A DNA stretch of 64,000 bases. Source: Olsenella porci (GTDB lineage Bacteria; Actinomycetota; Coriobacteriia; Coriobacteriales; Atopobiaceae). Below the pieces are notes generated by a model. The model ran no database searches and was not told the origin of the DNA. It was given only the letters and a program-made list of their open reading frames with translations. Positions 14,563 to 64,000 of the stretch are shown here, one piece after another. How positions within the stretch are numbered: position 1 is the first letter of the stretch; each line of letters begins with the position of its first letter. Made by a program: the position numbers and the translations under genes. The stretch covers positions 186,001-250,000 of the forward strand of contig NZ_VUNC01000003.1 of the NCBI RefSeq assembly GCF_009695875.1, given 5' to 3'.

Positions 14563-14676
14563 CTCGTAAGGATTGGCGCGGTTAGCACCCCTCTAACCGC
14601 GCCGAATCTTATTGAATCTCGCATCGCGTAAAGATTGACGCGGTTAGGGGCGCTGTAAACGCGTCAAATCTTACGG
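14563..14676. repeat. Family C dyad elements, first pair
   Basis: Two long inverted repeats with centres at 14589 and 14651, 62 bp apart. The first pairs GTAAGGATTGGCGCGGTTAG (14566-14585) with a near-complementary arm at 14593-14612. The second pairs GTAAAGATTGACGCG with CGCGTCAAATCTTACG and has a less regular middle. The elements lie between the 3' ends of the HdeD-like gene and glnN. The same family recurs at 63240-63354 with the same 62-bp spacing. Confidence 0.8.
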
Positions 14677-48964: not shown

Positions 48965-50087
48965 GGTGACCTCCTAATATTGAACACATGAACAGACACT
49001 CATAACTACTGGTGCATAAGCTATCAGGGGCAAGGTGGGGTGTCAAGTACGGAGGGAGCTTTGGCTGGTCGATCTTCTCGAGTAATTGAGGCGCGGAAGG
49101 GAGAGAGAAGAGCCGTCGCCTCGCCCCCGACTGGTCCCGCCGGCATCAGCGTTGACGCGCTGGTTGGAGGTCGTTGTGCCCCCGGTTCCCGTCGCTGGCG
49201 TCCGCTGAGCCGCGCGCAGGGCGCGGCAGCCGTGAGCCTAGCTCAGCGTCAGAAGTTGCATCCCGCATGGGCACACGGGACGTGGTTTCCGACAAGGCTT
49301 GGGCTCTGGTGGGCCACTAGGTTCGCGTTGCTGAGTCGCCCTCCCCGTGCGCTGCCTGGGGAAGGCGCACATCCACGCATTCCAATCCTCTCGGCTCGCC
49401 TGGTACATGACATCAAGGCTCGAACCATGGAGACGAGAGTCCGACGTGAGCGCTTCTTATGGGGGGTTCATCCGGGCGTTGGCCATAACCTTCATGTTTT
49501 CGCAGGTAAAAAGGATGGGAGAGGCACCGTCTCCCAACTGCTGGCAAGAATCTCCCGATGTGAGCACTCACATCGGGAGTTTCCAGCCAGATGCCCAGTG
49601 CAGCCGCACTCTCCTTGAGTCCTTTCGTCTTGATCTGCATTGCTTCGAACCCGTGGTTCTCGCGTCGACGCTGGACGAGGATTCTTGGAAGAGGCGCAGG
49701 AGCAGCCAGCTTACACCGGGTGTCTGGAGTCATCTTGGCTGTTGCGCCGCCGTGCCCTCCACCTCTGGGCGGTCGTGAAGACATGAAGGGCAACCCGATG
49801 CGTTCCGGCCCTAATCTCCGTACCCGTGATCCCCTTCTGTGAGTTCTTCCGAAGTGGCGCCATGCAAAACGAGCGCCACTTCCGATCCCTAGTGTCCCCG
49901 CGCTTCTCTTCCAAGAGCTCTTCTTAGAACCTTACCCGTGGAGGTGAGCTGGGAGCCATCGTGAGCAAGGCATGATGATTGCGCTCCTCCAGCCAGAGGA
50001 GAAACCCCGTTCCTGTCACCCGCAAGGTGCGCCCAATGTGGCGATGACATTTCGAGCGCGTTACCTCAGCGCCGGACTGTCACCACT
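48965..50087. other. Long non-coding gap between the metal ATPase and the his operon
   Basis: About 1.1 kb between divergent genes with no frame I can support. Frames near 49040-49618 (+) and 49413-49793 (-) show no family features. It holds one family D dyad (49540-49590) and a 10-bp inverted repeat GAAGTGGCGC/GCGCCACTTC (49851-49860 and 49873-49882). Its lower coding quality suggests decayed sequence, possibly a lost mobile element or gene. I see no tRNA, riboswitch or other RNA. Confidence 0.45.
49540..49590. repeat. Family D dyad element (isolated copy)
   Basis: CTCCCGATGTGAG (49552-49564), CA, then its perfect complement (49567-49579), flanked by CTGGC and CAGCCAG-like ends. The core GTGAG-CA-CTCAC and the outer GGCAG/CTGCC-like ends match the elements at 63665-63992. 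Confidence 0.7.
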
Positions 50088-63145: not shown

Positions 63146-63239
63146 TTGTCAAAGAAGAGGAGAGGGGGCATCTTCCGTGGCCGTGGTCGCGCATGGCGGC
63201 TGTGGCTCCTTTCTCATCCTAGGCGCCCCGCCGGGGCGT

Positions 63240-63354
63240 CCCGTAAGACTTCGCACGTTTAGGAGGCGGTTAACCGCGCCAATCCTTACGGGATTCCAAT
63301 TCCCGTAAGGTTCCGCGCGGTTACGGGGTCCCTAACCGCGCGAAGTCTTACGGG
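63240..63354. repeat. Family C dyad elements, second pair
   Basis: Two 53-bp inverted repeats, 63240-63292 and 63302-63354, with centres 62 bp apart and a 9-bp gap. Both begin CCCGTAAG and end CTTACGGG. The second is nearly perfect, pairing GCGCGGTTA with CTAACCGCGC around a short loop. Sequence and spacing match the pair at 14563-14676. Confidence 0.85.
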
Positions 63355-63664
63355 ACCGGCTTCCGCGCGCCGCGCAGCTCCCTCTCCCCGGGCGGCGGCC
63401 CCGGCGCGGGGGTTAGGGAAGGGGAGGTGACGCGTCCTCGCCGTAGGGTGCGGGACACGTCGTGTCTTCGACTGGGGGAGGGTCTGCCGGTCAAAGAAGG
63501 GGGAGGGCCTCCTGGCACGCGCGAGTCTTGGCCAGTGTGCAAGCCTCCCTCACCGGTGATCGCCGTTGCCCGCCCGGTAATCCCCTGCTGCCACTTCTCC
63601 GAGGGCTTTCTGCACGGTAGCGGGCCCCCTTTCCTGGGGGAGACCCTAACTCCTTACGGACGCC
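63355..63664. other. Non-coding stretch between repeat families C and D
   Basis: About 310 bp without a supportable gene. It contains a GTCAAAGAAGG-type motif at 63490, resembling ones at 63148 and 7240. No promoter or RNA is clear. Confidence 0.35.
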
Positions 63665-63992
63665 TGTCGAAAAGTTCCCCGCGTGTGTACACACGCGACG
63701 CGATTTTGGACAGAGTGGCCTTCCGTCGTAGACTTTCCCCAGTTGTCATCCAATCAAGTTTCTAACTTTGGCAGATAGTCCTTCGCGTGTGTACACACGC
63801 GGCGCGGTTTCTGCCATTCGGGCACCCGAGATGGGGCCGATTGTCAGAAAGTCCCTCGCGTGTGTACACATGTGACGCAGTTTCTGCCAGCGGAGTTTGC
63901 CCGACCGGCATTTCCACAGGTCGCATGACATCAATATTCGAATGAAGGCAGGAACTCGCCCGCGTGAGTGCTCACGTCGGGAGTTTGCTGCC
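63665..63992. repeat. Family D dyad array (four elements)
   Basis: Four dyads of about 48 bp with centres at 63688.5, 63792.5, 63865.5 and 63969.5. The first two cores are an identical palindrome, CGCGTGTGTACACACGCG; the third is a near copy. The fourth has CGTGAGTGCTCACG. Outer arms read GGCAGA-type on the left and TTTCTGCC-type on the right, so whole units are imperfect inverted repeats. No open frame spans them. The array continues close to the window end and may extend beyond it. Confidence 0.83.
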
Positions 63993-64000
63993 ACTAAAGG

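Follow-up and report, generated by a model that had tools for sequence, protein, structure and literature searches.

The 3' end of the window (the whole 64,000-nucleotide stretch analysed here, bases 186001–250000 of contig C9 in the 2.36 Mb genome of Olsenella porci) raises the question of what a series of long, regularly spaced palindromes does between genes: whether it ends transcripts, is mobile DNA or is read by proteins as double-stranded DNA. The series lies between uvrC, which was named from its sequence and ends at ~63088, and a gene that starts ~400–500 bp past the window end, as seen in locus L016. It contains four 48-bp dyads, assigned to neither strand, with centres at 63688, 63792, 63865 and 63969 and hence with the spacings of 104, 73 and 104 bp (~10, 7 and 10 turns) given in a preliminary description of this DNA. 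Three of them are of the T type (63665–63712, 63769–63816 and 63842–63889), with the core GTGTGTACACAC, the right core half of the third being degenerate (ACACAT), and the last one (63946–63993) has the A core GTGAGTGCTCAC. The run is therefore T, T, T, A, and not the alternation of cores described at first; the outer GGCAGA/TCTGCC arms, said to be kept throughout, are kept in part, the first dyad reading TGTCGA/TGGACA. A linker motif, CTTTCCCCAGTTG, is found on the + strand at 63733–63745, inside the first 104-bp spacer and at ~5 turns from either dyad; it belongs to a family-wide consensus, CGTTTnCCCAGTTGG. The second 104-bp spacer contains, in the same orientation, a degenerate copy at 63909–63920 (+ strand; CATTTCCACAGG), a weak match found by inspection.

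Other repeats surround the array. Just upstream of it, two 55-bp units, 75% alike and also inverted (TCCCGTAAG...CTTACGGGA), form a large compound dyad at 63238–63356, which apparently represents another intergenic repeat family; its end word is also found once at 14670. The word TCAAAGAAG is present at 63149 and 63491 and at 17 places in 40 fetched loci of the source genome, often followed by a purine-rich GGGAGGG; it is possibly part of a terminator-like repeat.

A second site in the window, previously described as an isolated copy near 49540, turned out to have partners. Its A-type dyad (49542–49589, no strand, centre 49565) is preceded by a lone A half-site on the + strand, TGGAGACGAGAGTCCGACGTGAGC (49428–49451), which has its core toward the dyad, lies exactly 114 bp (11 turns) upstream of the dyad centre and scores 15.9 against a null maximum of 13.4. 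The linker motif is found between the two, on the – strand (TTTACCTGCGAAAACAT, 49494–49510). A weak T-type dyad (49247–49294, no strand, centre 49270; E 3e-4) lies 295 bp upstream of the A dyad, which is thus not isolated.

The dyads form a family that is dispersed through the source genome. A genome search for the 14-bp core with at most one mismatch, a check suggested at the outset, located 23 places (46 strand matches), as compared with 0 for the reversed control, and profile searches gave E ~1e-8 to 1e-14 for most sites, so that the family is not due to chance. With profile models of both types and a cut-off of E ≤ 1, 58 T places (core GTGTGTACACAC) and 81 A places (core GTGAGYRCTCAC) were found in 44 clusters. 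Typical layouts are T-105-T-73-T-105-T, T-84-T-73-T-84-T and A-105-A-72-A, an A array often being located 200–500 bp from a T array. By simple gene calling, the clusters are intergenic, except for a few overlaps with weakly supported open frames, and they are often nearer the 3' end of the adjacent gene. Their flanks are convergent in 15 cases and divergent in 4, according to our own count from the gene calling; for related elements in other genera the figures are 21 and 8 (p 0.0007 when pooled with the source genome). The arrays avoid divergent promoter regions. When the genes neighbouring the clusters were compared, no recurring gene family was found beside them, transposases included, and no shared neighbour that might point to the binding protein.

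The spacings follow the helical repeat. Neighbouring full dyads in the source genome are found at 72 (A), 73 (T, 13 of 13), 84/85, 102–105 or 124 bp. A scan for single halves added ~30 lone A half-sites, with the core end toward the array, mostly at 113–116 bp and otherwise mainly at 93–95 bp from a full dyad; most of these score 20–34, compared with the null maximum of 13.4. The resulting ladder of 72/73, 84, 94, 104/105 and 115 bp corresponds to 7, 8, 9, 10 and 11 turns, and 12 turns occur once. For the complete phasing set (n = 92), which includes the half-sites within reach of an A dyad, the Rayleigh R is 0.91 at 10.5 bp, with a best period of 10.6 and a root mean square residual of 0.74 bp, and at distances above 130 bp a clear phase is lacking (R 0.37, n = 14). 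The spacing distribution across the genome is therefore not random, and the proposal that all elements face one side of the helix is supported, also by spacings of 73 and 84 bp in a second genome and by a 73-84-73 array in a third species (see below).

How much of this regularity is inherited has to be considered, since the clusters share ancestry: stretches are 66–94% identical between loci, with the edges of the shared segments near dyads. Part of the constant spacing could thus be inheritance, and the nominal p-values (~1e-23) overstate the significance, as the counts do the number of independent cases, because the clusters are related by descent. Most linker classes, however, are 40–49% identical (shuffled ~30%) at unchanged length, the 84-bp linkers being more alike (60–67%). 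Exact length combined with diverged sequence points to current selection on geometry, and several turn numbers are represented. Two distant loci (L080:3242–3467 and L113:2620–2845) share a 226-bp segment that is 94% identical and starts a few bases outside a T dyad, as would result from recent copying or gene conversion.

The linker motif bears on the symmetry of the arrays. The 84- and 105-bp spacers contain the asymmetric motif CGTTTgCCCAGTTGG or its reverse complement, located by inspection 44/40 bp from the dyad centres in 84-bp spacers and 54/50 bp in 104-bp spacers, so that the change from 84 to 105 bp adds one turn on either side of it. The 115-bp spacers between A dyads and half-sites contain a related motif, nnACCTGsGnAAACG, displaced outward by one turn relative to the 94-bp spacers and pointing away from the central A pair on both sides, which makes the A units two-fold symmetric (half-115-A-72-A-115-half). 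The two linker motifs of the T arrays point in the same direction, and the T array is therefore polar, not symmetric.

Phased arrays recur outside the source genome. In G136, which belongs to another genus of the same family and is apparently Olsenella sp. Marseille-P4559, a third core, GTGCGTACGCAC (C type), is found within the same outer arms at spacings of exactly 73 and 84 bp, with 184 forward places at ≤2 mismatches against 26 for the control. The 117 forward-strand core matches of this genome have no counterpart above background in six of its seven congeners; the seventh, G133, contains a single four-dyad 73-84-73 array beside clpX (named by eye from the translated sequence). Adjoining this sole array of G133 is a simple inverted element with AAAAGTGAACACGA arms around CGCGTTTTACCAGGAAGCTGG (L319, ~1640–1740). 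No matches were obtained with the exact T pattern in a genome-contig collection or with the T model in single genomes representing 39 other genera. A spaced degenerate core pattern run against a collection of 84,980 genomes, which may leave out the source genome, matched, besides Olsenella sp. Marseille-P4559, just unrelated repeats (Paractinoplanes, Bacteroidales and others); those of Paractinoplanes lichenicola (L160, L163) consist of TAAGTGAGTACTCAC-type words repeated in tandem every ~36–37 bp, and their remaining sequence is unrelated.

The linker motif is more widespread than the dyads. As TTTnCCCAGTTGG it is enriched across the family, with for example 54, 34, 33 and 19 copies per genome and ~0 in the control, and in the rest of the class its longer form is seldom seen. 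The 19 copies belong to one tandem repeat in G073 (L207, G073:C123:54009–55210), in which each of 19 units of 66 bp carries TTTCCCCAGTTGG. In other genera, two words in inverted orientation flank the motif. They differ between species, several word families being present per genome; the arms match within one element and differ between elements, and they may base-pair. Three of 20 loci (L227, L230 and L213) have such motif-centred inverted elements near tRNA genes. The arm spans in these genera, 43–107 bp, are not quantised, and general helical phasing across the family is unsupported; phasing thus belongs to the arrays of the source genome, G136 and G133. One further genome, G011, has an exact 112-bp period (10.7 turns) with nearly identical linkers.

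The relation between the two halves of a dyad indicates what kind of molecule is recognised. Two halves of one dyad match no better than halves taken from separate dyads (z –1.0 for A, with n = 63; 0.0 for T, with n = 52; –0.5 for C, with n = 51), in a comparison for which simulations with 10% of positions held complementary give z ~4. Neighbouring dyads show no complementary covariation either, some being alike in direct orientation, as local duplication would bring about. At the centre of the A dyads the palindrome is broken by a preference for T|G or C|A. In other genera, the orientation of the linker motif relative to tandem genes shows no strand preference (11 same, 15 opposite), and an Rfam search returned no relevant family. 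For the array-rich genomes, RNA, terminator and cruciform models are thereby rejected, and the early impression of protein sites rather than terminators is borne out. The lack of covariation favours double-stranded sites for a dimeric protein, each half of which would be read by one subunit.

With the anatomy, the phasing, the independence of the halves, the genome-wide copy number, the location bias and the recurrence in other species directly observed, we consider it probable that the locus is a helically phased array of long double-stranded binding sites with an architectural role, for which the proteins, their dimeric binding, the shape of the complex and its function may be pictured as follows. 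Each 48-bp dyad would bind a dimer of a sequence-specific protein, one subunit reading the TGGCA arm, a middle contact and the GTGNG core of each half, and the T and A types would probably be bound by two paralogous proteins. Dyads seven turns apart would act as pairs, extended on either side, across the linker, by one more element at 8 to 11 turns, either a dyad or a lone half-site. The linker site (consensus nnACYTGGGnAAACG) may bind a second protein that bends or bridges the DNA. With every part on the same face of the helix, the proteins could assemble into a compact looped or wrapped complex of ~300–350 bp. The most likely role would be an architectural one, in which short stretches of chromosome or transcription units are pinned or insulated, as has been suggested for the BIMEs of enterobacteria. 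Some observations count against it: sequence words that change fast from one species to the next, something unusual in an essential architectural site, the shared ancestry of the clusters, the unphased related elements of other genera and the polar T arrays.

The main alternative is that a transposase or recombinase, supplied in trans, binds the dyads and half-sites, so that the arrays are non-autonomous mobile elements, phased by the geometry of a synaptic complex and spread by copying without a host function. The species-specific amplification in G136, compared with background in six congeners and one array in G133, fits such an origin, as do the segments that distant loci have in common, which have their edges close to dyads and reach 94% identity over 226 bp, the dispersed intergenic distribution and the arms that vary between species around a constant centre. 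However, no array was found in any of the phages, plasmids and viral contigs searched, which yielded nothing relevant, no transposase or other gene family recurs beside the clusters, and the exact length of diverged linkers points to selection that is still acting on geometry. We regard this alternative as rather unlikely.

Control of adjacent genes by DNA looping, the arrays being ordinary operators of a repressor or activator, is improbable. Helical phasing together with a lac-operator-like core, as in the A type, is typical of looping repressors, and LacI-type operators, like the arrays here, are separated by whole turns, so that the bridged proteins share a face. Unlike such operators, the arrays form 44 clusters throughout the genome, with 24-bp half-sites, and few lie in divergent, promoter-bearing regions; they are often nearer the 3' end of genes that have no class in common.

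An equally poor fit is a REP, REPIN or BIME of the RAYT type, that is, single-stranded hairpins spread by a Y1 (IS200-like) transposase. REP elements (PMC3733652) are hairpin palindromes of 20–40 bp, one end of which bears an unpaired tag, GTAG or CGTC, and BIMEs, in which REP units flank an IHF site, form arrays that bind gyrase (PMC2817692). The arrays described here are likewise palindromic, high in copy number, extragenic, mosaic and near 3' ends, have a conserved motif between two inverted units as in the IHF-binding BIMEs, and share with BIMEs the regular spacing of palindromic units in extragenic clusters. They also resemble REPINs (PMC3116915) in the inverted pair with a spacer, the species-specific arms and the intergenic location, and the simple forms in other genera look similar. 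Genes for Y1_Tnp, moreover, occur in 7 of 11 motif-bearing genomes tested and in 1 of 9 motif-poor ones. Against this, Y1_Tnp (PF01797) is absent from the two array-rich genomes, the source genome (G000, 98.95% complete) and G136, in a search that was positive in 5 of 14 control genomes, E. coli included. Compensatory changes between paired arms, common in REPINs (PMC3116915), are seen neither within dyads (z ~0) nor, as a complementary excess, between neighbours. The sites are symmetric over 48 bp, with T or C at the outer position of both ends and no GTAG or CGTC tag conserved at one of them. Six Y1 loci from other genera were read, and none has a genuine element beside the gene, one carrying the motif with two mismatches. 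For the source genome the arrays thus fail as REP or REPIN elements, on the hairpin, compensatory-change and transposase tests. Most Y1_Tnp genes of the family have open frames of ~250–280 amino acids, and the two array-rich genomes are the exceptions to the trend in their distribution.

RNA hairpins or transcription terminators, suggested by the dyad symmetry and the position after genes, are hardly tenable, since the halves do not covary as a stem selected for pairing on one strand would, the family-wide linker motif is strand-neutral in other genera, Rfam is negative and the spacing tracks the helical repeat of DNA.

The architectural reading can be compared with known chromosomal sites. 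The enterobacterial BIME and RIB elements, for which a role in chromosome organisation has been suggested, likewise consist of palindromic units outside genes, which form regular arrays, in part alternating, that often follow genes and have a motif for a second protein in the spacer (PMC2817692). They differ in their shorter units (20–40 bp instead of 48 bp); here, moreover, the halves do not covary, the spacing is quantised in turns, lone half-sites are present, no RAYT-type gene was found and the sequences are unrelated. Binding of IHF, gyrase or Pol I is a further mark of BIMEs as architectural elements. SlmA binds a 12-bp palindrome, GTGAGTACTCAC (PMC3116907), which is nearly the 12-bp A core GTGAGYRCTCAC, a resemblance limited to the core. 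Like SlmA sites and matS, the arrays are present in tens of chromosomal copies that are not tied to promoters, but their sites are 48 bp long, are grouped in phased arrays that also include a second type and a linker motif, and lie between genes rather than in coding DNA. The arrays match no described system, and a literature search on the motif found nothing relevant among the matches listed.

More tentatively, a wider interpretation that we hold to be possible is that of an undescribed nucleoprotein system, in which a composite site found throughout the family, its centre (CGTTTnCCCAGTTGG) invariant and the words on either side changing fast, is predicted to have given rise, in two lineages, to phased arrays that would organise the chromosome or insulate transcription units through at least two co-evolving DNA-binding proteins. 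To our knowledge, few bacterial genomes show genome-wide binding sites arranged by helical phase. What makes the words change so rapidly around a centre that stays constant, mobile-element turnover or co-evolution with a protein, is a question that follows. With an exact geometric ruler of 7 to 11 turns, natural half-site and full-site forms and, over two species, three types of core, the sites would allow the protein to be found by affinity and short-range DNA looping to be tested in chromosome organisation.
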